Source of the DNA: Rhodospirillales bacterium
Lineage (GTDB): Bacteria > Pseudomonadota > Alphaproteobacteria > Rhodospirillales > Casp-alpha2
DNA: 17,873 nt
Direction of reading: 5' to 3'
Assembly: GCA_018664265.1 (NCBI GenBank)
Contig: JABJOR010000363.1
Span: forward strand, 1 to 17,873
The notes below the pieces were generated by a model. The model was given only the letters and a program-made list of their open reading frames with translations, searched no databases and had not been told where the DNA came from. Positions 2,844 through 17,873 of the stretch are shown piece by piece. The position numbers and the translations under genes were made by a program. The first letter of the stretch is position 1. Each line of letters begins with the position of its first letter.

Positions 2844-4901
2844 ATGGATAAGATAAAAAACCTGTTTTCATATCGCAAATTCTGGGCTCATCGATTTAGC
2901 CCAGCGCCATTCTTGCCCATGTCACGAGAAGAAATGGACGTTCTCGGCTGGGATAGCTGTGATGTGATTCTGGTAACAGGGGATGCCTATATCGATCACC
3001 CAAGCTTTGGCATGGCTGTTATTGGTCGGGTATTGGAAGCACAGGGCTTCAGGGTCGGGATTATATCCCAACCGGACTGGACGGATAAAAAGCACTTTAA
3101 GGGACTGGGCAGACCAAATCTGTATTTCGGGGTTACAGCCGGGAATATGGATTCCATGGTTAATCGTTATACGGCGGAGCGCAGGATCCGCCATAATGAC
3201 AGCTACACCCCCGATGATGAAGGGGGCAAACGTCCGGATCGATCGACATTGGTTTATGCCCAACGTTGCCAGGAAGCCTATAAAGGTGTTCCCGTAGTAC
3301 TGGGCGGGATTGAGGCATCGTTGCGCCGCATTGCTCACTATGATTACTGGTCGGATAAAGTCCGCCGCTCCATGCTGATCGACAGCAAGGCTGATTTGTT
3401 GCTTTACGGGAATGCCGAACGCGCGCTGGTGGAAATCACCCACCGTTTTGCCAAGGGTGACAAGCCTGAAGACATGCACGATATCAACGGTGTTGCCTTT
3501 GCTGTGCCGGGCATTCCGGAAGGTTGGGCAGAGCTGGATATGAGCTCCATTGATGATCAGCCAGTTGAGCGTGGCTCCAAAGATACAGAGACTGTCATTC
3601 GCCTGCCATCTTATGAAACCGTATCGACAGAGCCTGAAACATATGCTTTGGCCTCGCGCGTTTTGCATCTGGAAAGCAATCCAGGCAATGCCCGCCCGCT
3701 CATTCAGCGTCATGGTGAGCGCGAGCTTTGGGTTAATCCACCGCCTTTCCCGCTATCCACGCCAGAAATGGATGGCGTTTTTGATCTGCCGTACGCGCGC
3801 AGCCCCCATCCATCCTATGGAGATGCTCGCATCCCGGCGTGGGAGATGATCCGGTTTTCGGTCAATATCATGCGGGGTTGTTTTGGTGGCTGTACGTTCT
3901 GCTCTATTACAGAACATGAAGGCCGGGTTATTCAAAACCGTTCGGAAGGCTCGATCATTCGCGAAATCGAGGATATGCGAGACAAGATACCGGACTTCAA
4001 AGGGCAAGTTTCAGACCTGGGCGGGCCAACGTCCAATATGTATGGGCTGGAATGCAAGGATGATGAAATCCAGAAAGTCTGCCGCCGCTTGTCCTGTGTC
4101 TATCCAGATATTTGTAAAAACCTGAAAACTGATCATGGCCCGCTGATCAGCCTTTATCGCAATGCACGCTCCGTGAAGGGTGTGAAGAAAATCTCCATTG
4201 CTTCTGGCTTGCGTTATGATCTGGCGGTTAAAAGCCCAGAGTATATTAAGGAATTGGTGACCCACCACGTCGGTGGTTATCTTAAGATTGCGCCAGAACA
4301 TACCGAAGAAAACTCGCTGTCTAAAATGATGAAGCCGGGTATAGGTTCCTATGATCGCTTTAAGGCCTTGTTTGACCAGGCTGCCAAAAAAGCTGGGAAA
4401 GAGTTATATCTGATTCTCTATTTTATTGCGGCCCATCCCGGTTCCAGTGATGAAGACATGATGAACCTGTCCTTGTGGCTCAAGCGTAATAAATTCCGGG
4501 CGGATCAGGTGCAAACCTTCATGCCGACACCCATGTCATTGTCATCAGCTATGTATTATAGCGAGCGTAATCCGCTCAAGCCTGTGCGGCGTACAGGCGG
4601 TGAGACGGTCAATACGGCAAAAGGTATGAAACAGCGACGCCTGCACAAGGCTTTCCTGCGCTATCATGATCCTGATAACTGGCCACTTTTGCGCGATGCG
4701 TTAAAACGTATGGGGCGATCGGATTTAATTGGTCGGGGCAATCAATGTCTGGTGCCAGGCGCTGTCGGGCGGCAAGGCCGACACTATCATGAGGGACCGA
4801 AGGGTGAGAAACCAACAGAATTCTTTACTCAGCAATCTGGCAAAGGCCGCAGGCGTATGGGCGATAAGCAAACAAAGAATACCCGTAAGAGAGTTCGCTA
4901 G
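2844..4901 (+). CDS. ygiQ: YgiQ family radical SAM protein
   Basis: This 685-residue protein belongs to the YgiQ (UPF0313) family, a conserved radical S-adenosylmethionine group with no established reaction. The YgiQ N-terminal signature is clear ([12 protein letters not shown] from about residue 21, then GWDSCD and VTGDAY). The radical SAM core carries the 4Fe-4S motif CxxxCxxC as Cys346, Cys350 and Cys353 ([10 protein letters not shown]), followed by SITEHEGR. Other family blocks are [32 protein letters not shown] and the C-terminal [14 protein letters not shown]; the tail is basic. Compared with the E. coli protein as I remember it, a stretch of about 40 residues in the middle (around residues 240-260) is absent. 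The ATG at 2844 has only a weak ribosome-binding site, but the homologous N-terminus begins before Met26, so this start is preferred. The gene is convergent with tctA and shares four bases with it. Confidence 0.95.
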
Positions 4902-6397
4902 TCCTGTGAAGGTTTTTTCCATCTACGTCTGTAGATGGGAACCGCAATCATAGCCAAACCGATTAATAACAAAACCAGCGTCATGGGCCTTTCATACATG
5001 AAATCAATGCCATCGGTCAGGTTGACTGCACGGGCAAAATTGTCTTCCATCATGCCGCCTAAAATAAATCCGATCAGCAGCGGCGCCAGCGGATAATTGG
5101 CAAATCGCAAGAGGGTTGCAAATACGCCGAGACCTACAAGAATTAAAAGCTCAGTTGCATTGTTCTGCCCGATGTAGGCACCGATCATGGTGAAAAATAA
5201 AATGAACGGAATCAGGTAATTGCGCGGGATGGTCAGCAATTTGGCAATGTAAGGGATCATGGGTAGATTCAAAAAAATCAAAACCAGATTGCCGATGTAC
5301 ATGGAGATAATAACTGCCCAGAAAACATCCGGGTTATCGATCATCAGACGCGGTCCCGGATTTACGTTCAGCGCGATCAAAGCACCCAGCAAAATAGCCG
5401 TTGTGCCGGACCCTGGAATACCCAATGTCAAAAGTGGTACGAAGGAGCCTGTACAGGCAGCATTGTTGGCGGCTTCCGGTGCGGCCAGCCCCTTGATAGA
5501 GCCCTTGCCGAATTCATCCTGCTCCTCACCTTTGGCAATATTTCGTTCGACTGCATAGCCAAGGAAGGACGCTATGGTAGCCCCGGCCCCTGGCATAACG
5601 CCGATTAGAAAACCTTGAATGGATTGACGCCCAATTACAGGCGCAATTTTTATAGCTTCTTCTTTGGTTATGCGCAGGTTCTTGATTTCGTTGCTTGTGC
5701 TACTTTGTTTGCCGCGTTTGGGATCAAGTACCAGATAGAGCGCCTCAGGCAGGGCAAAAAGCGCCATGGCCAGCGTGATAAAGCTGAACCCCGATTGCAG
5801 ATCTGATATACCCATGGTGAAACGCGGGGCATTAAATAAGGCACTTTCCCCAACCGTGGACATCAGCAATCCCATGACGGTCATCAGCAGCGCCTTAACC
5901 ACCATGCCTTTTCCGGCAAAGGCAGCAATGGCAGACAGGCCAACGATCATCAGGGCGAAATATTCCGCTGAATGAAACAACAGAGCGACCGAAGAGAGCG
6001 CTGGTGCAAACCCCATAAGCAAAATAGCGCCAATGGTGCCACCACTGAACGAGGCGATGGCGGCGATGGTCAGGGCTTTCCCGGCCTGTCCTTTTCGGGC
6101 CATGGGATAACCATCAAACGAGGTCGCCACAGTCCCGGCAACACCGGGCGCGTTGATCAAAATAGAAGATGTGGAGCCGCCAAATATGGCACCATAATAG
6201 ACACCTGCCAGAAGAATAAGCGCCGCCGAAGGATCGCCGATTTTGATGGCTATTGGAATCATGATGGCAATAATAGACATGGGACCGAGGCCCGGCAGCA
6301 TACCGATGAGAGTGCCGATTAAACACCCGGCAATAACCATGAGCAGGTTCTTGATGGTAAAGGCCGTTGCGAGGCCGAGCAGAATTCCTTCAAGCAT
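4898..6397 (-). CDS. tctA: Tripartite tricarboxylate transporter, large membrane subunit TctA
   Basis: This 499-residue protein, the usual TctA length, is a polytopic inner-membrane subunit that forms the transport path of a TTT secondary transporter, working with TctB and periplasmic TctC. Family motifs are present: [15 protein letters not shown] near residue 34, [13 protein letters not shown] near 73, [17 protein letters not shown] near 265 and the [18 protein letters not shown] block near 315. About a dozen hydrophobic helices are visible. Shine-Dalgarno AGGAAGGTGAG precedes the ATG. The gene follows tctB after 11 bases, so the two are co-transcribed. TTT systems typically carry di- or tricarboxylates such as citrate, but the substrate cannot be read from this subunit. 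Its TAG stop overlaps the ygiQ stop within the palindrome CTAG. Confidence 0.96.
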
Positions 6398-6408
6398 GTC
6401 TCACCTTC

Positions 6409-6894
6409 CTACATCAAAAACCAGGGCAGGGGCCGCAGGTACAATCCCAACGTCTCCTGCACCAGATACCAGATTAAGATCGCGCTAAAGATGGCAATAG
6501 GCGTCATGATATGGAGCTTTCGCTCACCCAATATCCATCCGGTAGCCATAAGAAACAGGGTTGTCGAAACAAGAAATCCGGTGGGGCGCAAGGCCAGGGC
6601 GTAGACGATCATGGCGATGATCAAATAACTAGCCTGTCCGATTTCATAATCCTTGACCAGCCTTGCTACATTAATGTTGTCACCTGAGGATTCCTCATCA
6701 CCAACGCTCTGACTTGGTGAAAGAATTATGATTAAGGACAAAACAGCAGCAATGATTGCCAGCGCATTGGGCAGGGTGTTGGGCAGAAAGGACATGTTGC
6801 GCTCGAACGGCAGCAATTGATAGGTAAATGACGTATAGCCATAAGCTATGGATACGACAAGAAAAAGGGCTGCAATCCACTTATCAAGAACCAT
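6409..6894 (-). CDS. tctB: Tripartite tricarboxylate transporter, small membrane subunit TctB
   Basis: This is a 161-residue hydrophobic protein with about four predicted TM helices (near residues 8-24, 40-60, 86-105 and a C-terminal pair from about 120). The TctB family has little sequence conservation, so the call rests on size, topology and position between tctC and tctA, the standard TTT gene order. AAGG lies about 10 bases before the ATG. TctB is thought to assist TctA in the membrane. The gene sits downstream of a strong intrinsic terminator that follows tctC, so its expression probably depends on read-through and should be lower than that of tctC. Confidence 0.9.
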   Translation of the reverse strand: MVLDKWIAALFLVVSIAYGYTSFTYQLLPFERNMSFLPNTLPNALAIIAAVLSLIIILSPSQSVGDEESSGDNINVARLVKDYEIGQASYLIIAMIVYALALRPTGFLVSTTLFLMATGWILGERKLHIMTPIAIFSAILIWYLVQETLGLYLRPLPWFLM

Positions 6895-6932
6895 CGTACT
6901 GGCCTTCTGTTATACTTGTAGGGTGTGAAATG

Positions 6933-6970
6933 AAAAAACCGGAACCTGATGTTTTTAATTCAGGTTCCGG
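6933..6970 (-). terminator. Intrinsic terminator between tctC and tctB
   Basis: A perfect 11-base inverted repeat (CCGGAACCTGA at 6939-6949 with TCAGGTTCCGG at 6960-6970) surrounds a 10-base loop. Read on the minus strand it is followed at once by six T residues (the A run at 6938-6933). It lies 17 bases past the tctC stop and inside the tctCBA operon, so it probably works as a partial terminator or mRNA-stabilising 3' end that raises TctC output relative to TctB and TctA. The same hairpin on the plus strand is followed only by CTTTCT. Confidence 0.88.
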
Positions 6971-6987
6971 CTTTCTATTAGCTTAGA

Positions 6988-7968
6988 TCAAAGGAATCCG
7001 AGCTTTGTCATCAAATCCTTGATAACTTTTTCCTGGCCTTCCAGGAATTTAGTGAAGTCACCACCCGAGTTATGGATGTTGACCCAACCATTGCGGGCTC
7101 GCACGACTTCCCATTCAGGGGTATCGTACATTTTAGCAATGACTGCACGGTAAGCATCGGCTTTGGCAGCAGGCAGCCCAGGGGCTGCAAAGAATCCACG
7201 CCAGTTGACGAATTCTGCATCATAACCCTGTTCTTTCAGGGTTGGTGCATCAGACGCTGCGCTGTTTCGCTCAGCCGATGTAACACCGATGATGCGAACT
7301 TCGCCTGCATTGGCAAGTCCGACAGCTTCAGAGAAACCTGTGGAAAGGGCTTTGATTTCCCCGGACAACAACGCAGCCATGGCTTTACCACCTGCATCGT
7401 AAGGAATGTATTTTACTTTCGTAGGATCTTGCCCGGCGGCTTGCATTGCCATCGCGACAACAAGGTGATCCATGCCACCTGGGACAGAGCCGCCACCAAT
7501 GGCAACGCTCTTTGAATCAGCTTTGTAGGCCGCGACCAAATCCTTGAAAGATTTAAGCGGGCTGTCTTTATTCACAACAAAAGCGGCGTAATCACCGATG
7601 GTTCCGGCAATCATGGTCAGATCCCGGAAGTTATGCGGGAACCTGCCAACTAACGAGCGAATGACGATCGGTGTGGAATTCACCATCAATGAGCCAGCAT
7701 TGGAATCAGCATTTTCAATCAGATAACCAATAGCTTTGCCGCCACCGCCGCCGGACATGTTTTCATAAGATGCAGAACCGACTAGTCCGGATTTGGTCAA
7801 GGCTTCGCCTGTGCCACGGGCCGTGCCGTCCCAACCGCCACCGGCACCGCCGGGAATTATAAAGTGAATAGAATCGATGTCTGCTGCGTTGGATATGCCT
7901 GGCATAGACATCATGCCAACGACACCAGCTATGTATGCCATAGCTTTAAATGTGGATTTTATCCGCAT
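6988..7968 (-). CDS. tctC: Tripartite tricarboxylate transporter substrate-binding protein TctC (Bug family)
   Basis: This 326-residue periplasmic solute-binding protein of the TctC/Bug family captures the substrate and delivers it to TctA/TctB. A signal peptide is clear: basic start MRIKSTFK, hydrophobic core, and likely cleavage after SNA at about residue 28. The mature part begins with IHFIIPGGAGGGWDGTAR, the glycine-rich first ligand-binding loop of the family; later blocks include NSTPIVIRSL, GGGSVPGGMDHL and NWRGFFAAPG. Shine-Dalgarno GGGAGAG sits 6 bases before the ATG. It is the first gene of the operon and is transcribed divergently from the regulatory operon, an arrangement typical of TTT systems controlled by a linked two-component system. 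Bug-fold proteins bind carboxylates in general; the ligand is not predictable here. Confidence 0.95.
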   Translation of the reverse strand: MRIKSTFKAMAYIAGVVGMMSMPGISNAADIDSIHFIIPGGAGGGWDGTARGTGEALTKSGLVGSASYENMSGGGGGKAIGYLIENADSNAGSLMVNSTPIVIRSLVGRFPHNFRDLTMIAGTIGDYAAFVVNKDSPLKSFKDLVAAYKADSKSVAIGGGSVPGGMDHLVVAMAMQAAGQDPTKVKYIPYDAGGKAMAALLSGEIKALSTGFSEAVGLANAGEVRIIGVTSAERNSAASDAPTLKEQGYDAEFVNWRGFFAAPGLPAAKADAYRAVIAKMYDTPEWEVVRARNGWVNIHNSGGDFTKFLEGQEKVIKDLMTKLGFL

Positions 7969-8006
7969 GAATTTCTCTCCCGTTAATAGAAATTTTAATT
8001 GTATTT

Positions 8007-8047
8007 TTGATGAACGTAAAAACTCTAACAGTCTTAACTTTCATCAA
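8007..8047. promoter_or_regulatory. Inverted repeat TTGATGAA-N25-TTCATCAA, candidate operator
   Basis: TTGATGAA at 8007-8014 is matched exactly by its reverse complement TTCATCAA at 8040-8047. The arm centres are 33 bases apart, about three helical turns, so both would face the same side of the DNA. It lies 39-79 bases upstream of the tctC ATG, with one arm between the candidate -10 and -35 elements and the other just upstream of the -35. By position it is the best candidate binding site for the OmpR-type regulator encoded at 8141. This is inference; a chance 8-base repeat cannot be excluded. Confidence 0.35.
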
Positions 8048-8100
8048 CCTTTCGCATTGGCAGCTGGATTTCAGTCTTATTTGCTCATATCATTTCCAGA

Positions 8101-8126
8101 ATTGGGCCCATTAAACATAACCCAAT
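8101..8126 (+). promoter_or_regulatory. Small hairpin ATTGGG-N14-CCCAAT next to the regulator ribosome-binding site
   Basis: Six-base complementary arms lie at 8101-8106 and 8121-8126, directly before the Shine-Dalgarno-like GAAAGG (8127-8132) of the GTG-started response regulator. If it forms in the mRNA, the hairpin abuts the ribosome-binding site and could affect translation. If used as DNA, it could be a half-site pair. The stem is short and both readings are tentative. Confidence 0.2.
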
Positions 8127-8140
8127 GAAAGGTTGTACTC

Positions 8141-8800
8141 GTGAGGGTTCTGTTAGCAGAAGATGATGCCATGCTTGCCGATGGATTGGTGCGTTCGCTC
8201 AGGCAAACCGGTTATATGGTTGATTGGACCGCCGATGGCGAGGAGGCTGAAGCCATCTTGCGTGTTCAGGAGTTTGATCTCGTTATCCTTGATTTAACAT
8301 TGCCCAATATGGATGGGTTGGAAGTTTTGCGTATTTTGCGCGCGCGTAAGATACTTGTGCCAATCTTGATTATTACAGCACGTTCAGAAGTTGAGGACCG
8401 TATTAAAGGTCTCGATTTGGGAGCGGATGATTATCTTACAAAACCATTCGAATTGGGAGAATTTGATGCAAGAGTGCGGGCTCTATTACGCCGTAGCCAC
8501 GCGGATGGATTGGAAAGTTTGTCATGTGGAGCGTTGAGCCTCGATATATCAGCAAGACGCGCCTATTTAAACGCAGAACCTCTGGATTTGCCACGACGTG
8601 AGTTCCATTTGCTTGAAGCTCTGATGTCAAAGCAAGGCCGCATTATAAGCAAAGATCAGATTATAGATTCCATATCAGATTTTGATGATGAGTTAACACC
8701 ATCAACAGTAGAGATCTATATACACAGGCTTCGCAAAAAACTTGAATCCACCAACGTATCTATCCGAACCGTTCGTGGTGTAGGGTATATTCTGGAATGA
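8141..8800 (+). CDS. tctD: OmpR/TctD-type response regulator
   Basis: This 219-residue two-component response regulator has an N-terminal receiver (about residues 1-115) with acidic pocket EDD (7-9), phospho-acceptor Asp51 (VILDLTLPNMDG), conserved Thr79 and Lys101 (TKPF). An OmpR-type winged-helix DNA-binding domain (about 125-219) follows, with the typical ending YIHRLRKKLE and RTVRGVGYILE. The start is GTG at 8141, supported by GAAAGG upstream and by the receiver beginning at residue 1 (MRVLLAEDD). The stop overlaps the kinase start in ATGA, implying translational coupling. Together with divergence from tctC and the TctE-like partner, this points to control of the adjacent TTT operon. The symbol marks resemblance to TctD, not proven orthology. 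Confidence 0.93.
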   Translation: MRVLLAEDDAMLADGLVRSLRQTGYMVDWTADGEEAEAILRVQEFDLVILDLTLPNMDGLEVLRILRARKILVPILIITARSEVEDRIKGLDLGADDYLTKPFELGEFDARVRALLRRSHADGLESLSCGALSLDISARRAYLNAEPLDLPRREFHLLEALMSKQGRIISKDQIIDSISDFDDELTPSTVEIYIHRLRKKLESTNVSIRTVRGVGYILE

Positions 8801-10182
8801 CCATCAGACCAACACCATCGTGGTCAATCCGGCGGCGAGTTCTGGCCTGGCTGTTTCTGGCGATGGCTTTTGTCTTCTCAGCGAACCTTCTGAGCAGCTA
8901 CTATAGTAATATTGAAGCGGCAAATAGTGCCTTTGACCGATTGCTTCTGGCTTCAGCATCAGCCATCGCTGAACGAACGGTTGCTCGCGAGGGCGGAATA
9001 CATGTAGATATTCCTTACGTTGCTCTGGATATGTTGGCATCGACAGCACAAGACAGGGTTTTCTATACCGTATTGGCGCCAGATGGAGAAATAGTGACGG
9101 GGTATGAAGATTTGCCTCTACCAAAGACCATATCCAACGTTCCAGTTTTCTATGATTCCATTTATAAACAGGTATCTGTTCGCATCGTTGTTCTCAGACG
9201 GTTTGTTTCCGGCAATAACCTGTCGGGTTACACTACCATTCAGGTTGCTCAGACACGAGGGGACCGGGATGGTTTGTCTTATAATCTTTTGAGACAAAGC
9301 GCCTTGTGGATGTTGGTGATTGCTATCGTCGGTGCTATCACCGCGTGGTTTGGTGTGAGTGTAGGCCTAAGACCTCTTGCTCGGTTGAGAGATGCTCTCG
9401 GGCGACGCTCACCAGACGACGTGCGCCCCGTGTTGCATGATGTACCAAATGAATTCAGACCTCTGGTTGGGGCTATTAATTCTATGTTGCATCGCTTGGA
9501 TAACGGCCTGCAATCCATGCGTAACTTTATAAGTGATGCTTCTCATCAATTGAAGACACCGCTTGCAAGTTTGCTGGCACAAAGCGAAATGGCGCTTAGG
9601 GAGTCCGACCCCGATGATCTGCGCGAGGCATTGATCAAGGTAAATAAAAGCGCGCAACGCACCAGCCGTCTGGCGCAACAATTGCTTGCTCATGCCAGTG
9701 CGGCCGGAGCATCTCCTGCATTCGCAGAATTGAATCTCGCTCGGCTGGTTCGGGAAACAATTGAAATTCTTTTGCCTCAGGCTATCGCCAAGAATATTGA
9801 CCTTGGATATGAGGGGGGCCAACAAGCCATAATGCAAGGCGATCGTATTTTGTTGGGCGAAATGGTTCTTAATCTTGTGGACAATGCAATTAAATATTCC
9901 CCTGACGGATCTATGGTAACCCTGGGAATAAAATTGGTGGATGGAGCACTTCATCTTATTATTGATGATGATGGACCGGGTATTCAACAGCAGGATCGTC
10001 AAAATGTTTTTGAGCGATTTGTCAGGCTTCAAAGTTCTTCTGCTGAAGGGTGTGGCCTTGGTTTGGCTATTGTAAATGAAATTGCCATTCATCATGGGGC
10101 TGAGGTATCGCTTGGTGACGCACCAGATGGCGGTTTGCGCGTTGATGTTGTGTTCCCGGCGAATACTAGGGAAGACTCATGA
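8797..10182 (+). CDS. tctE: TctE-type sensor histidine kinase
   Basis: This 461-residue inner-membrane sensor kinase has TM helix 1 (about residues 13-32), a periplasmic segment of about 130 residues resembling the N-terminal domain of TctE/QseC-type kinases, TM helix 2 (about 168-190), a HAMP-like linker, HisKA with H-box HQLKTPL and phospho-acceptor His250, and a HATPase domain with N-box starting at Asn359 (NLVDNAIKYS), DDDGPGI and the G-box GCGLGLAIV. It should phosphorylate the regulator encoded immediately upstream, with which it overlaps by four bases. The next gene, a secreted binding protein, starts one base after its stop. The periplasmic domain may therefore read the state of that binding protein rather than, or as well as, free ligand. 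Confidence 0.93.
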   Translation: MTIRPTPSWSIRRRVLAWLFLAMAFVFSANLLSSYYSNIEAANSAFDRLLLASASAIAERTVAREGGIHVDIPYVALDMLASTAQDRVFYTVLAPDGEIVTGYEDLPLPKTISNVPVFYDSIYKQVSVRIVVLRRFVSGNNLSGYTTIQVAQTRGDRDGLSYNLLRQSALWMLVIAIVGAITAWFGVSVGLRPLARLRDALGRRSPDDVRPVLHDVPNEFRPLVGAINSMLHRLDNGLQSMRNFISDASHQLKTPLASLLAQSEMALRESDPDDLREALIKVNKSAQRTSRLAQQLLAHASAAGASPAFAELNLARLVRETIEILLPQAIAKNIDLGYEGGQQAIMQGDRILLGEMVLNLVDNAIKYSPDGSMVTLGIKLVDGALHLIIDDDGPGIQQQDRQNVFERFVRLQSSSAEGCGLGLAIVNEIAIHHGAEVSLGDAPDGGLRVDVVFPANTREDS

Positions 10183-10183
10183 T

Positions 10184-11266
10184 ATGAAGGCTTTCAGGAT
10201 TTTTAGATTTTTGTTGCTGGTGAGTTTTCTATCAATTTTGTGGGGAACTTCATCGAATGCGATACTTGTTAGCTTCCAGGCTCCGAAAGCTGCGACTGAA
10301 AAATTGGTCATTTATAGCTCTGCTGACGTTGATCGAATTGTATCTTTGGTTAAGGCTTTTCAAAAAAGACACCCTACAATCACCATAGATTATTATGAAC
10401 TGGATACGCTTGAAATTAATCAGCGTGTTATTCATGAAACAGATAACGCTATGCCGACGGCTGATCTGGCATTGAGTTCGGCTATGGATTTACAAATTAA
10501 GCTGGTGAACGATGGTTACAGTTCACCATATTATTCCGAGGAAACCAAGGCTTTGCCCGATTGGGCAAATTGGCGCAATGAAGCTTTTGGTTTCACATAC
10601 GAGCCGGCAGTGATTCTTTACAACAAGGCACTTGCTCCAGATTTAAAACGGATCGACAGTCGTTTTGAACTTGCGAAATTACTGAATCAACAAAGCGCCA
10701 GAATGCAAAATCGTGTCATTACCTATGATCCTGAATTCAGCGGTCTTGGTTACTTGTATGGTACACAGGACGCAGTTCGCTCAGAGGATTTCTGGTATCT
10801 GGCACGGAGTTTGGGAGACAGCGGCGTACAGTTGGTGACCAATTCGGCTTCCATGATCAACAGCGTGGCAGATGGAGATGCCCTGATAGCCTACAATGTC
10901 TTGGGCTCTTACGCATTGGCTCGTGCCAGGGACAATCAGGATTTAGCTATTACAATTCCTCAGGACTATTGTTTGGTAATGTCGCGAATTGCCGTTATCA
11001 GCAAGGCTGCGCTTAATCCTGAGGCGGCAGGCAAATTTATTGATTTCTTGGTATCACGAGAAGGCCAGCAGCTAATCGCTGGCCCCGCGTCGCTGTATGC
11101 CATCAGGACAGATATCAGTGGTGTGGCTACGGCCAAGAAATTACAAGAGACGGCAAGCGGCCCACTTATTCCCATTCATCTGGGACCGGGGCTGCTGGTG
11201 TATCTTGACCGTATGAAGCGGAAAGATTTCCTGAGCCGTTGGAGAAGGGCCATGGAAGGCAAGTAG
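10184..11266 (+). CDS. Secreted solute-binding protein of the regulatory operon (PgtC/iron-binding-protein-like)
   Basis: The start is placed at ATG 10184 (360 residues). A longer frame reaches back to 10076, but that part overlaps the kinase gene, whereas from 10184 there is a proper signal peptide (MKAFRIFRF then a hydrophobic core) and AGGGAAG lies 9 bases upstream. The mature part reads LVIYSSADVDRI, a family 1-type ABC solute-binding fold, with FGFTYEPAVILYNK near residue 135 and FIDFLVSREGQQL near 285. No ABC permease or ATPase is nearby. It starts one base after the TctE-type kinase stop, so it probably acts in signalling. The nearest known parallel is PgtC of the Salmonella PgtABC phosphoglycerate system, a periplasmic protein needed with a two-component pair for transporter induction. 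The ligand is unknown; an ordinary transporter receptor remains an alternative. Confidence 0.85.
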   Translation: MKAFRIFRFLLLVSFLSILWGTSSNAILVSFQAPKAATEKLVIYSSADVDRIVSLVKAFQKRHPTITIDYYELDTLEINQRVIHETDNAMPTADLALSSAMDLQIKLVNDGYSSPYYSEETKALPDWANWRNEAFGFTYEPAVILYNKALAPDLKRIDSRFELAKLLNQQSARMQNRVITYDPEFSGLGYLYGTQDAVRSEDFWYLARSLGDSGVQLVTNSASMINSVADGDALIAYNVLGSYALARARDNQDLAITIPQDYCLVMSRIAVISKAALNPEAAGKFIDFLVSREGQQLIAGPASLYAIRTDISGVATAKKLQETASGPLIPIHLGPGLLVYLDRMKRKDFLSRWRRAMEGK

Positions 11267-11316: not shown

Positions 11317-12222
11317 ATGACTATGAGTCAAAGACGCCTTTTGCCATCGACCAGTATGCTTGCCGCTTTTGATGCCGCTGCGCGCACCGGCAGCTTTACG
11401 GCTGCGGCTAAAACCCTTGATTTGTCACAAGGGGCAATCAGCCGACAAATCAGGGCACTGGAACAACAGCTGGGGCAGGATTTGTTCGTTCGTGACAAGC
11501 AATCGGTGAGTCTGACCGAGATCGGCCAGACGTATGCGACAGAGATACATGCGGCCCTCAATACCATTCGTTCAGCAAGCCTTTCAGTGATGACCAATCC
11601 TTATAGCGGGGAGTTGAAGCTTGCGATCTTGCCAACCTTTGGCACGCGCTGGTTGATCCCGCGCCTCCCATCATTTCTGGATAGCAATCCCGGTGTTACG
11701 GTGAATTTCTTTATGAAGGTTGATCCCTTTGATTTTGCCGAAGAAGGACTCCATGCGGCAATCCATTATGGGCTTCCAGACTGGCCTGAGGCAGATTGCA
11801 CATTTTTGATGGGCGAAGACGTTAGCCCGGTGTGTTCCCCCCAGTTTCGTGAAACATACGGCCTTGAAAAAGCAGAAGATTTTCTCGACATTTCCTTGCT
11901 GCACATTACGACCCGTGGCAATGCATGGAGCGAATGGTTCCGGTCCTGTGGCATCAATAATGAAGCCCATCAAGGCATGCACTTTGAGCAGTTCTCTTCT
12001 GTGGCCCAAGCCGCCGTTGCAGGGCTGGGTGCCGCCCTGCTACCCACCTTTCTTATTCGCAGTGAGCTGGATAGCGGGACGCTGGTCCATGCGCTGGATA
12101 TTCCGGTAGAGAGTTCCCGCGCGTACTATCTGGCTGTCCCGCACGCCAGGAAAGCCTATCCTCCCGCCGTGGCTTTTGGGGAGTGGTTGGTGAAAGAAAT
12201 CAAAAGTCATTACCAAAGGTAA
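11317..12222 (+). CDS. LysR-type transcriptional regulator (GcvA-like)
   Basis: This 301-residue regulator has an N-terminal winged helix-turn-helix (about residues 12-70; helix-turn-helix near 26-45, AAAKTLDLSQGAISRQI) and a C-terminal effector-binding domain (about 98-295). The opening LPSTSMLAAFDAAARTGSFTAAA and DLFVRDKQSVSLTE are typical of the GcvA/AmpR-like branch. Two ATG codons (11317, 11323) are possible and neither has a good Shine-Dalgarno, so the start is uncertain by two codons. It lies 50 bases after the solute-binding protein gene with no visible terminator between them, and 117 bases before the aminomutase-like gene on the same strand. By position it most likely controls the downstream amino acid operon in response to a substrate or intermediate; this is inference. 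Confidence 0.93.
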   Translation: MTMSQRRLLPSTSMLAAFDAAARTGSFTAAAKTLDLSQGAISRQIRALEQQLGQDLFVRDKQSVSLTEIGQTYATEIHAALNTIRSASLSVMTNPYSGELKLAILPTFGTRWLIPRLPSFLDSNPGVTVNFFMKVDPFDFAEEGLHAAIHYGLPDWPEADCTFLMGEDVSPVCSPQFRETYGLEKAEDFLDISLLHITTRGNAWSEWFRSCGINNEAHQGMHFEQFSSVAQAAVAGLGAALLPTFLIRSELDSGTLVHALDIPVESSRAYYLAVPHARKAYPPAVAFGEWLVKEIKSHYQR

Positions 12223-12339: not shown

Positions 12340-13971
12340 ATGTTGGATTCCGTATCAAGCAACGCCGTTGATATAGCCCAAACCCTCGAATGCGGCGCAT
12401 TCTCTGATGAAACTAAGCAGATCATTGCTGATGAAGGCCTTCTACCGGAAGGTTTGGTAAACAGGCTTCATCGTCAGTACACATCCGTTTCTGCATTGGG
12501 CAGCACAGACAAGCCTCTGTTCACGGAACGTAATGATTACACCGGACTAGGTGGGTTTCGCGCTGTAAACCAGATCCTGCTCGATAATGGTATTGATATT
12601 GGTCATCAGGACGAACGCGAATTGTTTGTTGAGGTTTATCGGTTTCTAGCCACCAAACATACGTTGAACAGCATCAACTGGAATGACTTCGCCACGGACA
12701 GCATCTTCCAGCTTGTATTCCCGCAGCCCAGCATGATTAATAAAAAGGTCACCGATGCCTATGTTACGGCTCCGGAAGGCGAAGCCCGTACAGCTATAGC
12801 CCAGGAATACATGAAGGAAACCAATCCTCATGATGGCAACCAGCAGCTTAACAAGCCATGGTTTGTTAACAGTGAAGGCGTTTTGGAATTGCTGGCGGGC
12901 AGTCAGCACAAGTACCCGCAGTGCCAGTTGATCTTCGATAAAAGCACCCAGCATTGCTTTTCGTTCTGCACCTATTGTTTCCGCCATGCACAGGTCCGTG
13001 GTGATGAAGACATGTTTTTGCAAAATGATGTGGATCAGGCTCATGCTTACTTGCGTCTGCACACCGAAGTTTCTGATCTGTTGATTACGGGCGGTGACGG
13101 CGGGTTCATGCCTGCCAATCGCTTGAAGCAGTATTGCGATCCGATTATGCATGACCCAAGCTTGCAGCACATTCGCACCGTGCGTCTGGCAACCCGTGCA
13201 CTGACCTTTCATCCGGAAATGATGTTGACCAAAAAGTATGATGCCATGTTGGCTGTCTTTGATGAACTGCACGATAACGGTGTTCAGCTTGCCCTCATGG
13301 CGCATTTCTCAACCCCGCGTGAATTGCTCAACCCGGTTACTATTGCGGCGATTCGCCGCCTGCAAAAGCATGGCGTTGTGGTTCGAAGCCAATCTCCAAT
13401 CATGCGTCATATTTCCATGTTTGATAATGAAGATGGCACAATTGATATTGATCGTTCCGCCCAGAACTGGATTGATCTTGGCAATATCTTTGCCACATTG
13501 AAAGTCGGCTTCCACTCCATGTACTGTGCCCGTCCGACCGGAGAACATCATTACTTTACGGCTCCTCTGGCAGATGTTGCAAAAATCTTCGACAAGATTT
13601 ATCGCTCACTTTCATCCATCAATCGTCCGTCGCGTTATATCTCCATGACCACCTCGGCTGGAAAGTTATCCTTATTGGGAACTTCAGAAATCAATGGCGA
13701 AACAACGTTTGCTTTAAAGTTCTGTGAAAGCCGAAATATGCAGTGGATGGACAAAGTGTTCCATGCCAAGTACGACGAAAAAACCAACAATGTTTCTCTG
13801 CTAAATCCGATTGAAGGCAACAGCTTCTTCTTTGAAGATGAACTGGCCCAGATTGAGGAAGAACTGGCGTCCGACTTGAAGGCCGCCATGAATAGCTCAA
13901 AAGGGGTTCACATGGACGAAGTTTCCGTCGAGTATGATGAGCTTGGTTTAGACAGTCACAGCGTAGCTTAA
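12340..13971 (+). CDS. KamA-family radical SAM protein, predicted amino acid 2,3-aminomutase of unknown substrate
   Basis: This 543-residue protein belongs to the lysine 2,3-aminomutase (KamA) family, in which a 4Fe-4S cluster, SAM and PLP move an alpha-amino group to the beta carbon. The 4Fe-4S motif is Cys206, Cys210, Cys213; Arg215, two residues on, matches KAM Arg134, which binds the substrate carboxylate. A SAM-contacting GGD follows (ITGGDGG). Lys442 (TTSAGK) aligns with the PLP lysine Lys337 of KAM. The two KAM aspartates that hold the lysine side-chain amino group (Asp293, Asp330) correspond to Ala397 and about Ser435, so lysine is an unlikely substrate; Arg398 lies next to Ala397. 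It is longer than KAM (about 416), with roughly 80 extra residues before the radical SAM core and a long acidic C-terminal tail. It is the first gene of an operon with CoA-transferase, aminotransferase and thiolase. EpmB (EF-P modification) and AblA (osmolyte synthesis) are less likely given size and context. Confidence 0.88.
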   Translation: MLDSVSSNAVDIAQTLECGAFSDETKQIIADEGLLPEGLVNRLHRQYTSVSALGSTDKPLFTERNDYTGLGGFRAVNQILLDNGIDIGHQDERELFVEVYRFLATKHTLNSINWNDFATDSIFQLVFPQPSMINKKVTDAYVTAPEGEARTAIAQEYMKETNPHDGNQQLNKPWFVNSEGVLELLAGSQHKYPQCQLIFDKSTQHCFSFCTYCFRHAQVRGDEDMFLQNDVDQAHAYLRLHTEVSDLLITGGDGGFMPANRLKQYCDPIMHDPSLQHIRTVRLATRALTFHPEMMLTKKYDAMLAVFDELHDNGVQLALMAHFSTPRELLNPVTIAAIRRLQKHGVVVRSQSPIMRHISMFDNEDGTIDIDRSAQNWIDLGNIFATLKVGFHSMYCARPTGEHHYFTAPLADVAKIFDKIYRSLSSINRPSRYISMTTSAGKLSLLGTSEINGETTFALKFCESRNMQWMDKVFHAKYDEKTNNVSLLNPIEGNSFFFEDELAQIEEELASDLKAAMNSSKGVHMDEVSVEYDELGLDSHSVA

Positions 13972-13991
13972 CAGGAAAATTCGGGGGAGTT

Positions 13992-14699
13992 ATGGATAAA
14001 CGTATACAATCGGTTTCTGAAGCAGTAGCCGATATTCAGAATGGGTCAACGGTGATGATCGGGGGATTCGGCGAAGCCGGAAGTCCTATCGAGTTGATCC
14101 ACGCCCTGATCGACAGTGGCGCAAGAAATCTGACAGTCGTTAACAATAATACAGGTAATGGTGAGGTTGGTCTTGCTGCCCTGATCGGCAATGGACAGGT
14201 TCGCAAGATGATCTGCTCCTATCCCCGTTCCAGCCATTCCAAGGTTTTCCCGGAGCTCTACCGCGCTGGGAAAATTGAACTGGAGCTGGTTCCACAAGGA
14301 ACATTGGCCGAGCGTATCCGCGCTGGCGGTGCCGGTATTCCGGCGTTTTATACGCCGACCACTGTGGGGACACCTTTGGCTGAGGGCAAAGAGGTTCGTG
14401 AATTTAATGGTCGCAAATATGTTATGGAGCCCTGGCTTCAGGCTGATTACGCATTGATAAAATGCGAAACGGCTGATCACGCAGGCAATCTGACCTACAA
14501 CAAAACAGCCAGAAATTTCAGCCCCATCATGTGCATAGCCGCCACGACAACAATCGTTCAGGCTCGCAAGATTGTAGCTCCTGGCGATATTGATCCGGAA
14601 TGTGTTGTTACACCGGGATTGTTTGTTGACCGGATTGTTCAAGTGGCAGAACCGCTTCAGGAATCCAAACTTATTGCCGAGGGGGTAAGCTATCCATGA
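13992..14699 (+). CDS. pcaI: 3-oxoacid (3-oxoadipate-like) CoA-transferase subunit A
   Basis: This 235-residue alpha subunit belongs to a class I CoA-transferase, which moves CoA from succinyl-CoA to a 3-oxo acid. Family blocks seen: VMIGGFGEAGSPIELI near residue 22, NNNTGNGEVGLAALI near 50, YRAGKIELELVPQGTLAERIRAGG near 90, and GNLTYNKTARNF then TPGLFVD near the C-terminus. These are closest to PcaI as I remember it, but ScoA/AtoD-type enzymes share the fold, so the symbol denotes resemblance only. GGGGGAG precedes the ATG by 2 bases. It lies 20 bases after the aminomutase-like gene, and its stop overlaps the start of subunit B (ATGA), as expected for a two-chain enzyme. The second-gene position suggests the acceptor is made by the operon's own enzymes. 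Confidence 0.92.
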   Translation: MDKRIQSVSEAVADIQNGSTVMIGGFGEAGSPIELIHALIDSGARNLTVVNNNTGNGEVGLAALIGNGQVRKMICSYPRSSHSKVFPELYRAGKIELELVPQGTLAERIRAGGAGIPAFYTPTTVGTPLAEGKEVREFNGRKYVMEPWLQADYALIKCETADHAGNLTYNKTARNFSPIMCIAATTTIVQARKIVAPGDIDPECVVTPGLFVDRIVQVAEPLQESKLIAEGVSYP

Positions 14700-15358
14700 G
14701 CGATTCAACAGAAATGAAAAAAGGCTGGAGCCGCAATCAGATGGCCGAGCTTGCTGCCCATGATATTCCCGATGGCTCTTGTGTTAATCTGGGTATTGGT
14801 ATTCCGGAACTGGTTGCTCAGTATGTGCCGGAAGGGCGTGAATTCCTGTATCACACTGAAAACGGTTTGCTTGGAATGGGGCCTACTCCCGAGTCGGGCG
14901 AAGAAGATCCAGAATTGATCAATGCTGGCAAGAAACCTGTAACGGCCTTGCCCGGCGCGAGTTATTTTCACCATGCCGACAGCTTCGCCATGATCCGGGG
15001 CGGTCATATTGATGTTTGTGTTCTGGGTGCCATGCAGGTTTCCGGAAACGGCGATCTAGCCAACTGGTCTACGGGCGAAGTTGACGCCATTCCGGCTGTG
15101 GGTGGGGCTATGGATTTGGTTCAGGGCGTGAAAAACATTTTCGTGATCACCACCCACTGCACCAAAACGGGAGATGCCAAGCTGGTCGAAGCCTGCACCT
15201 ATCCGCTGACAGGCGTTGGTGTGGTCTCGCGAATTTATACTGATCTGGCTGTCATCGATGTTACACCGGAAGGCTTCCGGGTCAACAAATTGGCACCGGG
15301 CGTAAGCTTTGAAGAAGTTGTAGAAAAAACTGGTGCACCTGTGTTGCCAGCAGCTTAA
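14696..15358 (+). CDS. pcaJ: 3-oxoacid (3-oxoadipate-like) CoA-transferase subunit B
   Basis: This 220-residue beta subunit is the partner of the preceding gene. It carries the catalytic glutamate, Glu55, in the hallmark ENGLLGMGP; this residue forms the glutamyl-CoA thioester intermediate. Other family blocks are VNLGIGIPELVAQYVP near residue 30, SFAMIRGGHIDVCVLGAMQV near 100 and GAMDLVQGVKN near 140. Translation is coupled to subunit A through a four-base overlap. Length and motifs are normal for PcaJ/ScoB. The substrate is not fixed by sequence reading alone: acetoacetate, 3-oxoadipate or another 3-oxo acid are possible. Confidence 0.92.
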   Translation: MSDSTEMKKGWSRNQMAELAAHDIPDGSCVNLGIGIPELVAQYVPEGREFLYHTENGLLGMGPTPESGEEDPELINAGKKPVTALPGASYFHHADSFAMIRGGHIDVCVLGAMQVSGNGDLANWSTGEVDAIPAVGGAMDLVQGVKNIFVITTHCTKTGDAKLVEACTYPLTGVGVVSRIYTDLAVIDVTPEGFRVNKLAPGVSFEEVVEKTGAPVLPAA

Positions 15359-15375
15359 GAAACGGGGATACCAAA

Positions 15376-16695
15376 ATGAGCAAAAGCACTGAACTCTTCA
15401 CCCGTGCGCAAGGCGTGCTGCCCGGTGGAGTAAGCCGCAATACTTTGTTGCGTGATCCGCATCCTTTGTATGTTTCCCACGGACAGGGCTGCAAAGTCAC
15501 CGATGTAGACGGTGTTGAGCGTCTCGACTTTGCTAACAATATGGCATCGCTTATTCACGGCCATGCGCACCCGGCTATGGTAGAGGCAATTTCGGCACAA
15601 TTGGCGCGTGGAACGGCCTTCACCATGGCAACCGAAGCCGAAATTATTTACGCCGAACATCTTTGTTCTCGGGCGCCCGGGTTTGATAAAATTCGGTTTG
15701 TAAATTCCGGCACCGAAGCTGTGATGGCAGGTGTCAAGGCGGCCCGCGCTTACACAAACCGCCCAAAGATTGTGAAAGCTGAAGGCACCTACCATGGGGC
15801 CTATGATTATGTCGAAGTCTCGCAGGCTCCCGGCCCTGATGACTGGGGTGACGCCGGGCATCCAAAATCTGTCCCGCTCGCCGTTGGAACACCCGATGGC
15901 ATAATGAGCGACGTTGTCGTTATTCCCTACAACGATATCGAAGCCTCGCTGTCAATTCTGGATGAGCACCAAGATGACATCGCCTGTGTGCTGATTGACC
16001 CCATCCCGCACCGGGTTGGTCTTATCCCGGCAGATCAGCCGTTCGTTAAGGCGCTTCGTGAATGGGCAACAGCTAACGGCGCACTGTTGATGTTTGATGA
16101 AGTCATTACCTTCCGCTCAGAAGTTGGTGGAATGCAACAACGCTACGGTGTGCAGCCTGATCTTACCTCCATGGGTAAGGTTATCGGTGGCGGCTTCCCT
16201 GTCGGAGCCCTTGCCGGATGTGATGATGTGATGGATGTGTTTGTCTCCAAAGGTGCAGGCCCCCGTCTTCCTCATTCCGGCACGTTCTCAGCCAACCCTG
16301 TCACCATGACAGCAGGCCGGATTGCTATGGAGCTTTATGATGCCGAGGCCGTTACACGTCTGAATGGGCTTGGTGATATGGCCCGCAGCAAGCTTGAAGA
16401 AGCGATCAAGATCGCGGATGTGCCTGGCTCTGTTACGGGTGCAGGTTCCTTGTTCCGTCTGCATTTGAAGTCTGAACCACCCCGTAATTACCGCTCGACC
16501 TTCCCGACGCCTGCTGAAAAGAAAGCGCTGAGCCAGTTCATCAATGGTATGTATGACGAAGGTATCATGATGGTTCACACGGCTATGGGTGTATTATCAA
16601 CCCCAATGGGTGAAGCCGAAATAGATCGCCTTGCCGAGGCCGTCTTAATAAATCTTCGCACTATTCGAGAAGTTTTGCTAAAAGAAAAAAATTAA
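15376..16695 (+). CDS. Class III PLP aminotransferase, glutamate-1-semialdehyde/beta-amino-acid type
   Basis: This 439-residue fold-type I PLP enzyme has the PLP lysine Lys268 (TSMGKVIGGG), Asp241 in MFDEVITFR contacting the PLP ring nitrogen, the phosphate-binding Ser-Gly-Thr at 111-113 and YHG at 139-141, plus HSGTFSANPVTM near 300. Automatic annotation would probably say glutamate-1-semialdehyde 2,1-aminomutase, but the operon has nothing to do with haem. The sequence also resembles beta-phenylalanine-type aminotransferases: GGVSRNTLL places Arg21 where those enzymes, as I remember, use an arginine (Arg41 in the Variovorax enzyme) to bind the beta-amino acid carboxylate. An odd point is the usual EPxxG loop, which here reads DPIPHRVG (from residue 208). 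Predicted role: removing the beta-amino group made by the upstream aminomutase to give a 3-oxo acid. It starts 17 bases after the CoA-transferase subunit B gene. Confidence 0.88.
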   Translation: MSKSTELFTRAQGVLPGGVSRNTLLRDPHPLYVSHGQGCKVTDVDGVERLDFANNMASLIHGHAHPAMVEAISAQLARGTAFTMATEAEIIYAEHLCSRAPGFDKIRFVNSGTEAVMAGVKAARAYTNRPKIVKAEGTYHGAYDYVEVSQAPGPDDWGDAGHPKSVPLAVGTPDGIMSDVVVIPYNDIEASLSILDEHQDDIACVLIDPIPHRVGLIPADQPFVKALREWATANGALLMFDEVITFRSEVGGMQQRYGVQPDLTSMGKVIGGGFPVGALAGCDDVMDVFVSKGAGPRLPHSGTFSANPVTMTAGRIAMELYDAEAVTRLNGLGDMARSKLEEAIKIADVPGSVTGAGSLFRLHLKSEPPRNYRSTFPTPAEKKALSQFINGMYDEGIMMVHTAMGVLSTPMGEAEIDRLAEAVLINLRTIREVLLKEKN

Positions 16696-16705
16696 ACTGA
16701 AAGTT

Positions 16706-17873
16706 ATGATTATGTTTGATGCTTTTATCTGTGATGCTATTCGTACTCCCATCGGTCGCTTTGGTGGTGGCTTATCCTCGGTCCGTGCCGATGACTTAGG
16801 TGCTATTCCGCTTCGCGCGCTGATGGAGCGAAATGCAGATGTGGATTGGAGCGCTGTTGATGATGTGATTTTTGGTTGTGCCAATCAGGCGGGAGAAGAC
16901 AACCGTAATGTTGCAAGGATGTCGAGCTTGCTGGCGGGGCTTCCTGAAAGTGTCCCCGGTGCAACTATCAATCGCCTGTGCGGATCTGGTCTGGATGCAG
17001 TAGGTACAGCGTCGCGTTCTATTAAATCAGGCGAAACACAGTTGATGATAGCAGGCGGTGTGGAGAGCATGTCGCGCGCGCCATTTGTCATGCCAAAGGC
17101 CTCCAGTGCTTTTTCACGCAACGCAGAAATTTATGACACCACCATCGGTTGGCGCTTTGTTAACAAGATGATGAAATCCCAGTACGGTGTAGATTCCATG
17201 CCGGAAACCGGAGAAAACGTTGCAGAAGATTTTGATATCTCCCGTGAAGATCAGGATGCTTTTGCGGCGCTGTCTCAATCTCGGTGTGCTGCGGCGCAAG
17301 CGGCTGGTGTGTTTGCTGATGAAATCGTTCCGGTAAGTATTCCACAGCGTAAAGGTGATCCACTGGTCATTGGCACCGATGAGCACCCCCGCGCAGAATC
17401 AACTCTGGAAAAATTGGCAAAGCTGCCAACGCCGTTTCGTGATGGCGGCAGCGTTACCGCAGGCAATGCATCCGGTGTGAATGATGGTGCGTGCGCGCTT
17501 GTAATGGCATCAGAAGAAGCTGCCAATCTGCACGGATTAACCCCGAAAGCCCGTGTTGTTGCTATGGCAACGGCGGGGGTTGCGCCGCGTATTATGGGCT
17601 TTGGTCCGGCTCCGGCTATGAAGAAAGTTTTGGCGAAAACAGGCTTAAGTCTGGACGCCATGGATGTGATTGAGCTGAATGAAGCCTTCGCAGCTCAGGC
17701 CCTTGCCGTGACCCGCGATCTTGGCCTTGCCGATGATGACGCGCGTGTGAATCCCAACGGTGGTGCCATAGCCCTTGGCCATCCACTGGGTATGAGCGGC
17801 GCACGTCTGGCAACAACTGCTATGTACCAGTTACAACGAAATGGCGGCAGGTATGCGTTGTGTTCCATGTGTA
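16706..17873 (+). CDS. pcaF: Acetyl-CoA acyltransferase, PcaF/PaaJ-like 3-oxoadipyl-CoA thiolase, cut by right edge
   Basis: The frame is open for 389 codons to the right edge; thiolases of this kind have about 400 residues, so only about a dozen are missing. The start is ATG 16706 or 16712 (MIMFDAFICDAIRTPIG); a weak GAAAG precedes it. Nucleophile Cys92 sits in NRLCGSGLDA, His359 in the NGGAIALGHPLGMSGAR block, and the second catalytic cysteine, Cys389, is the last complete codon. QAGEDNRNVARM, TTIGWRFVN and DSMPETGENVAEDF are characteristic of the 3-oxoadipyl-CoA thiolase branch (PcaF, PaaJ), which splits 3-oxoadipyl-CoA to succinyl-CoA and acetyl-CoA. It follows the aminotransferase by 10 bases in the same operon and would perform the final cleavage. 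A broader 3-oxoacyl-CoA specificity is possible. Confidence 0.95.
   Translation, partial: MIMFDAFICDAIRTPIGRFGGGLSSVRADDLGAIPLRALMERNADVDWSAVDDVIFGCANQAGEDNRNVARMSSLLAGLPESVPGATINRLCGSGLDAVGTASRSIKSGETQLMIAGGVESMSRAPFVMPKASSAFSRNAEIYDTTIGWRFVNKMMKSQYGVDSMPETGENVAEDFDISREDQDAFAALSQSRCAAAQAAGVFADEIVPVSIPQRKGDPLVIGTDEHPRAESTLEKLAKLPTPFRDGGSVTAGNASGVNDGACALVMASEEAANLHGLTPKARVVAMATAGVAPRIMGFGPAPAMKKVLAKTGLSLDAMDVIELNEAFAAQALAVTRDLGLADDDARVNPNGGAIALGHPLGMSGARLATTAMYQLQRNGGRYALCSMC

Follow-up and report, generated by a model that had tools for sequence, protein, structure and literature searches.

At the end of a 17,873-nucleotide contig from a Rhodospirillales genome (G000:C167:1-17873, the whole of which is referred to as the window), five packed genes form an operon that probably breaks down L-2-aminoadipate, a product of lysine, into the beta-ketoadipate pathway. 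The genes encode a KamA-family aminomutase (KAM), a 3-oxoacid CoA-transferase of two subunits (CTA and CTB), a class III aminotransferase (AT), and a 3-oxoadipyl-CoA thiolase (THI). The proposal builds on direct observations, namely the identities of the genes, the conservation of the operon, a substitution in the aminomutase active site and, in part of the genomes, linkage to and co-occurrence with genes leading from lysine to 2-aminoadipate. We infer the substrates of all steps and the flux from lysine.

The source genome is 78% complete in 603 contigs, and the contig ends at 17873. The initial annotation of this DNA had described five tightly packed genes of these families in this order, and the listing of open reading frames (ORFs) and the family searches both agree, with the thiolase cut by the contig end. 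The ORFs lie on the same strand from 12340 to the contig end; KAM is 20 bp from CTA, CTA and CTB overlap by 4 bp, and AT and THI follow after gaps of 17 and 10 bp:

12340..13971 (+): KAM, KamA-family radical S-adenosylmethionine (SAM), pyridoxal 5'-phosphate (PLP)-dependent aminomutase, 543 aa; proposed 2-aminoadipate 2,3-aminomutase, related by sequence and fold to lysine 2,3-aminomutase, with CxxxCxxC, R398, and K442 conserved
13992..14699 (+): CTA, 3-oxoacid CoA-transferase subunit A (PcaI/ScoA type), 235 aa; TIGR02429 at 356.5 bits (cut-off 128.5), PF01144
14696..15358 (+): CTB, 3-oxoacid CoA-transferase subunit B (PcaJ/ScoB type), 220 aa; TIGR02428 at 298.2 bits (cut-off 243.55), PF01144
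15376..16695 (+): AT, class III aminotransferase, 439 aa; proposed 3-aminoadipate aminotransferase; PF00202, nearest solved relatives 6k8h and 6ssd
16706..17872 (+): THI, 3-oxoadipyl-CoA thiolase (PcaF type), 389 aa, truncated at its 3' end where the contig stops; TIGR02430 at 693.3 bits (cut-off 597), best PDB match 6pca

In the proposed pathway, the radical SAM, PLP-dependent aminomutase would shift the alpha-amino group of 2-aminoadipate to the beta carbon, and the resulting 3-aminoadipate would be converted to 3-oxoadipate by the class III aminotransferase. The CoA-transferase would form 3-oxoadipyl-CoA with succinyl-CoA as donor, as in PcaIJ, and the PcaF-type thiolase would cleave this to succinyl-CoA and acetyl-CoA, thereby regaining the donor. 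The 2-aminoadipate would arise from lysine via 2-aminoadipate 6-semialdehyde, through the saccharopine pathway, lysine 6-transaminase (LAT), or pipecolate oxidase, depending on the organism. Such chemistry would require no oxygen and release no CO2. Three features together narrow the substrate to 2-aminoadipate: the thiolase is of the PcaF type, the aminomutase has an Arg where KamA has an Asp, and some of the operons adjoin genes that lead from lysine to 2-aminoadipate.

Conservation of the operon across phyla

A scan of one genome per species yielded 165 relatives of the aminomutase, and the loci of the best 80 of these were analysed. They belong to Alphaproteobacteria, Gammaproteobacteria, Desulfuromonadales and other deltaproteobacteria, Thermoanaerobaculia, Bacteroidota, Sumerlaeota, Krumholzibacteriia, Ignavibacteriae, Edwardsbacteria, Elusimicrobia, Planctomycetota, and others. 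Partner genes were counted at the 62 loci where 4.8 kb or more of DNA follows the aminomutase gene, the other 18 having too little downstream DNA. CTA and CTB each follow KAM at 52 of the 62, AT at 51, and THI at 45, and the order KAM-CTA-CTB-AT-THI is conserved across phyla. The arrangement recurs in many groups and is not due to chance. Co-occurrence of the five families in other genomes had been named beforehand as one of the points on which the initial annotation would stand or fall, and it is present, with all four partners behind KAM at 43 of the 62 loci. The same conservation supports the generic route proposed there, from an alpha-amino acid through a beta-amino acid and a 3-oxo acid to a 3-oxoacyl-CoA and its thiolysis.

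Several loci depart from this layout or carry additional genes. KAM and AT are present at L013 and L014, and the other partners are absent from the stretch examined. At L015:7402-8730 the usual AT is replaced by another class III aminotransferase, 33% identical to it and located behind the thiolase. A small gene of a single cluster adjoins the operon at five loci (L045:3921-5329, L041, L046, L055, and L056) and is a hotdog thioesterase by Pfam in L041; in L045 it is preceded by a short HglS-domain gene. A thiamine pyrophosphate-dependent enzyme is encoded near the operon and a 2-aminoadipate-semialdehyde dehydrogenase (AASADH) gene in L012 and L061 (by Pfam domains in L061 and by eye in L012), and one BKACE gene lies near the operon in L055.

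Family, fold, and active site of the aminomutase

KAM is a distant member of the KamA family and has no Pfam match at E 0.001. Its best NCBIfam matches are weak and fall well short of the respective cut-offs (TIGR03822, 70 bits; TIGR00238, the KamA family, 67.9 bits against 199.2). It also falls below the cut-offs of the models for lysine 2,3-aminomutase (TIGR03820, 56.7 bits, cut-off 525.4) and glutamate 2,3-aminomutase (TIGR04368, 51.4 bits, cut-off 650); since KAM passes no aminomutase model, the glutamate score does not discriminate. The sole PDB sequence match is KamA/AblA lysine 2,3-aminomutase (2a5h), spanning only about residues 185-360. An AlphaFold2 model (pLDDT 85.9, pTM 0.89) likewise has its best fold match in 2a5h, a partial one, as TM-scores between 0.49 and 0.65 and a high rmsd show. 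For the active site, 36 KAM sequences and two distant relatives were compared by profile with five KamA-type sequences, with L094 and L098 left out of the KamA alignment:

12955..12978 (+): CxxxCxxC (C206, C210, C213), the cysteine ligands of the radical SAM iron-sulfur cluster; unchanged in all 38 aligned sequences
13531..13533 (+): R398, at the position of the Asp in KamA's QCD motif (profile alignment); the same residue in all 38 sequences
13642..13644 (+): S435, at the position of the second Asp that contacts the lysine side chain in KamA (profile alignment); Ser in 27 of the 38 sequences, Thr in 10, and Val in 1
13663..13665 (+): K442, at the position of KamA's PLP lysine (profile alignment); the same residue in all 38 sequences

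The radical SAM core with CxxxCxxC and the PLP-binding lysine, which characterize the KamA family, are thus shared with KAM, whereas the two aspartates for the side-chain amine that characterize lysine 2,3-aminomutase are replaced by an Arg and mostly Ser or Thr. In the Clostridium subterminale enzyme, D293 and D330 bind the side-chain amine of lysine and K337 is the PLP lysine; we take these three to be the equivalents of R398, S435, and K442, respectively. Glutamate 2,3-aminomutase has a Lys in place of the KamA Asp, a similar change. Both aspartates are kept in all five KamA-type comparison proteins. Two of these were scored; they pass TIGR00238 and reach 482 bits with the lysine 2,3-aminomutase model, below its cut-off of 525, so that the activity of the comparison proteins is itself uncertain. 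Because an invariant Arg replaces the amine-binding Asp while the PLP lysine is kept, a side-chain carboxylate would be expected in the substrate, and judged from the sequences the Arg would fit such a group.

At E 0.001, the family comprises 1467 of the 7999 candidate proteins scored, a number that may include other KamA relatives. Among the 120 matches listed, those named at all are called hypothetical or lysine 2,3-aminomutase. A shorter KamA-like family (L161:8390-11121 and L162:357-1733; 437 to 463 aa, 31 to 36% identity to the window KAM) also has Arg in place of the KamA Asp and may represent another acidic amino acid aminomutase. Directly upstream of its gene in L161 is a class III aminotransferase-like gene (462 aa, assigned by eye).

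Downstream enzymes and genes for 2-aminoadipate formation

Like the window thiolase, all eight operon thiolases picked from other groups pass the pcaF equivalog cut-off, and the best PDB match of the window protein (6pca) is a beta-ketoadipyl-CoA thiolase. In six of eight genomes lacking THI at the locus (L010, L012, L013, L014, L047, L052, L061, and L062), a thiolase above this cut-off is encoded elsewhere. CTA and CTB pass the subfamily models pcaI_scoA and pcaJ_scoB, each of which covers both PcaIJ and ScoAB. The likeness of AT to beta-amino acid aminotransferases is weaker than the initial annotation had claimed, as its nearest solved structures are 6k8h (unnamed) and ForI, followed by several glutamate-1-semialdehyde aminomutases, all of which outrank the beta-transaminases 6iz9 and 2yku. 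A second aminotransferase in the genome of the window (G000:C576:5559-6842) is 46% identical to AT.

Genes for the formation of 2-aminoadipate flank some of the operons. Among the 80 loci, AASADH is found in the examined flanks of 10, saccharopine dehydrogenase (SDH) in those of 6, and both in 5, and AASADH is absent from the examined flanks of 70. The AASADH proteins of L012 and L058 score 808 and 818 bits, above the L-piperidine-6-carboxylate dehydrogenase cut-off of 730; the L047 dehydrogenase was left out of this scoring. Treating aldehyde dehydrogenase cluster c7 as a single family proved wrong, and its Shewanella members (L020, L022, L025, and L029) and L014, which miss the AASADH identity threshold, were not counted. 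The genes of L057 (L139 is from the same genome) lie on one strand in the order AASADH, SDH, KAM, CTA, CTB, AT, THI, and those of L060 in the order AASADH, KAM, CTA, CTB, AT, THI, SDH, also on one strand. In L086 (the same as L132), SDH is located 37 bp behind the thiolase gene.

Three feeder routes to 2-aminoadipate are represented in aminomutase genomes: lysine-ketoglutarate reductase (LKR) with SDH, LAT, and an AmaA-like oxidase. In stretches L130, L131, L133, L134, L136, and L137, an alanine-dehydrogenase-like gene is present beside a LYS9-type SDH gene (one gene away in L133), followed in the same run by AASADH in L134 and L136. Three such alanine-dehydrogenase-like proteins were compared with Pfam, and the one from L130 matches the LKR part of AASS over nearly its full length. 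LAT adjoins AASADH in two Thermoanaerobaculia genomes (one is that of L160), and an AmaA-like oxidase does so in L058 and in a congener of the window's genome (459 and 447 bits, below the cut-off of 600).

AASADH was also sought genome-wide in 50 aminomutase genomes chosen for diversity, the genomes of 30 of the 80 loci not being included. It is present in 24 of the 50 at E 1e-150 (23 over the cut-off). Outside the Alteromonadales and Vibrionales, 30 of 38 aminomutase genomes have AASADH, lysine-type SDH, or LAT; five of these count by SDH alone (four of these SDH were checked, and that of G062 was judged by score and length) and one by LAT alone. In the order to which L058 belongs, 118 sampled genomes include 10 with KAM and 23 with AASADH. 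AASADH is present in every one of the 10 KAM genomes (in 9 of them over the cut-off) versus 13 of the 108 without KAM, and the two genes lie within 6 kb of each other in 7 of the 10; one of the ten KAM matches is partial, with an internal stop. By a Fisher test, which ignores phylogeny, the association has a value of 1.2e-8, or 6.1e-5 when five genomes first reached through KAM loci are removed.

Upstream of the operon in the window is a regulatory gene:

11317..12222 (+): LysR-type regulator (GcvA-like); PF00126 and PF03466, best NCBIfam match PRK11139 GcvA at 256.5 bits (below the cut-off of 288)

This gene ends 117 bp before KAM, and it is likely that its product controls the operon. The cluster of its relatives is found in 27 of 81 loci (L090 is from the same genome as L009), often adjoining the aminomutase gene. 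Further upstream, positions 4898-11266 contain genes resembling a tripartite tricarboxylate transporter, a divergent TctDE-type response regulator and sensor kinase, and another solute-binding protein; this last protein was compared with family libraries, and the others were judged by sequence. Positions 2844-4901 encode a YgiQ-family radical SAM protein (TIGR03904, 848 bits).

Alternative substrates and relation to known lysine routes

Several observations weigh against 2-aminoadipate as the substrate or against its origin from lysine. AASADH was not found in the 78%-complete genome of the window, which has a small SDH gene (G000:C378, L127) near an Lrp-type-looking regulator gene, with an alanine dehydrogenase gene two genes on. 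The congener G001, 98% complete and judged from its coordinates to be the genome of L009, carries SDH as well as AASADH, but at E 1e-80 it lacks a homologue of the operon aminotransferase. In a set made up of the window's genome and 60 relatives, full-length KAM is present in two, and since AASADH occurs in one of these two and in 10 of the remaining 59, the set shows no association. Neither AASADH nor LAT was found in any of the 12 sampled aminomutase genomes of the Alteromonadales and Vibrionales. The SDH baseline in genomes without the aminomutase rests on 14 controls, two of which have SDH, and the neglect of phylogeny in the Fisher test belongs here as well. As for the enzymes, the CoA-transferase models cannot tell 3-oxoadipate from acetoacetate enzymes, and a thiolase gene adjoining the L043 operon on the opposite strand scores 512 bits, below the pcaF cut-off. 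Among the genomes without THI at the locus, that of L061 has only a sub-cut-off thiolase and that of L013 none. In Colwellia-type genomes, KAM is separate from the other operon genes; AT and THI are together in three of three searched, and in L033 they lie on the strand opposite to KAM at a distance of about 7 kb.

The 12 Alteromonadales and Vibrionales genomes (G068-G078 and G086) represent Shewanella, Colwellia, Litorilituus, Photobacterium, Pseudoalteromonas, and Aliivibrio. HglS was considered as an explanation for their missing lysine genes and rejected. HglS-domain genes (PF07063) are present in 20 of 51 genomes, and the short form ends an arginine succinyltransferase-like run in four of six stretches (L152, L155, L156, and L157, where this set was read from sequence starts only); different genes surround it in L153 and L154.

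Lysine itself could be the substrate, with beta-lysine converted through 6-amino-3-oxohexanoate and its CoA ester to acetyl-CoA and 4-aminobutyryl-CoA. This would agree with lysine 2,3-aminomutase being the nearest solved relative of KAM and with the lysine genes near some loci, and would make AASADH unnecessary, as in the Alteromonadales and Vibrionales. However, an invariant Arg stands where KamA has its amine-contacting Asp, the thiolase belongs to the 3-oxoadipyl-CoA type, and the linked AASADH and SDH would consume lysine before the aminomutase step, and we consider direct use of lysine very improbable. Having a basic residue in place of the KamA Asp would suit any acidic amino acid, among them glutamate, which could pass through beta-glutamate, 3-oxoglutarate, and 3-oxoglutaryl-CoA to malonyl-CoA and acetyl-CoA; this would also account for genomes without AASADH. 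The PcaF-type thiolase, which indicates a C6 dicarboxylate, and the linkage and co-occurrence with AASADH make glutamate an improbable substrate nonetheless.

Similarly small is the chance that some other acidic or N-substituted amino acid is degraded and that the lysine genes lie nearby merely through general amino acid catabolism. The absence of AASADH from all 12 Alteromonadales and Vibrionales genomes and from the examined flanks of 70 loci points in that direction, but tight linkage of AASADH and SDH is repeated in unrelated groups, LAT is found beside AASADH, and the type of the thiolase argues for a six-carbon dicarboxylate here too. Finally, membership in the PcaIJ and PcaF families would be expected if the downstream genes were an aromatic-degradation set, with aminomutase and aminotransferase as mere unrelated passengers. 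That is exceedingly unlikely given a gene order conserved across phyla and the location of AT between the CoA-transferase and thiolase genes, and no gene for ring cleavage stood out near the loci inspected, although no search was aimed at such genes. Degradation of 2-aminoadipate is the reading we prefer.

In this reading the operon shares the last two steps of the lower beta-ketoadipate pathway (PcaI, PcaJ, and PcaF), but the 3-oxoadipate would derive from an amino acid rather than from ring cleavage of protocatechuate or catechol. With saccharopine/2-aminoadipate catabolism it would share the upper part from lysine to 2-aminoadipate (LKR, SDH, and AASADH). Lysine would instead leave that route at 2-aminoadipate by a 2,3-amino shift, not by transamination to 2-oxoadipate, without decarboxylation and without an O2-dependent HglS step. 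Clostridial lysine fermentation, which consists of KamA, KamDE, Kdd, and Kce, likewise begins with a KamA-type 2,3-amino shift, whereas the operon ends in aminotransferase, CoA-transferase, and thiolase. As the initial annotation had stated, KamDE, Kdd, and Kce are absent from the five operon genes and the LysR gene, to which this comparison was confined.

PMC7253579 describes how 2-aminoadipate is formed by the saccharopine route. According to a 2017 Phaeobacter paper (PMC5653290), almost all of the eleven lysine degradation routes then in MetaCyc end at glutaryl-CoA, and a later 2-oxoadipate route, outlined in PMC7286885, uses the O2-requiring HglS to give D-2-hydroxyglutarate. The 2-aminoadipate routes described in these two papers proceed to 2-oxoadipate and then to glutaryl-CoA or the HglS product D-2-hydroxyglutarate. 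In the open PMC literature, which leaves subscription journals mostly uncovered, we found no description of 3-aminoadipate in metabolism and no aminomutase combined with 3-oxoadipate enzymes in such a route. Names for beta-aminoadipate returned one meteorite paper, and aminomutase together with oxoadipyl-CoA returned a review of synthetic pathways, which concerns a different route. A lysine route via 3-aminoadipate was thus not found described in the open literature, and an earlier report may exist.

It seems reasonably likely that the operon represents a widespread, oxygen-independent bacterial lysine route via a new 2-aminoadipate 2,3-aminomutase, in which all six carbons are kept as succinyl-CoA and acetyl-CoA. 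If so, lysine could be broken down without oxygen and without loss of CO2, feeding the tricarboxylic acid cycle directly through succinyl-CoA, and lysine catabolism would be joined to the beta-ketoadipate pathway. The beta-amino acid 3-aminoadipate would gain an enzyme, and a large family of proteins, whose named members among the matches listed are called hypothetical or lysine 2,3-aminomutase, would gain a function.

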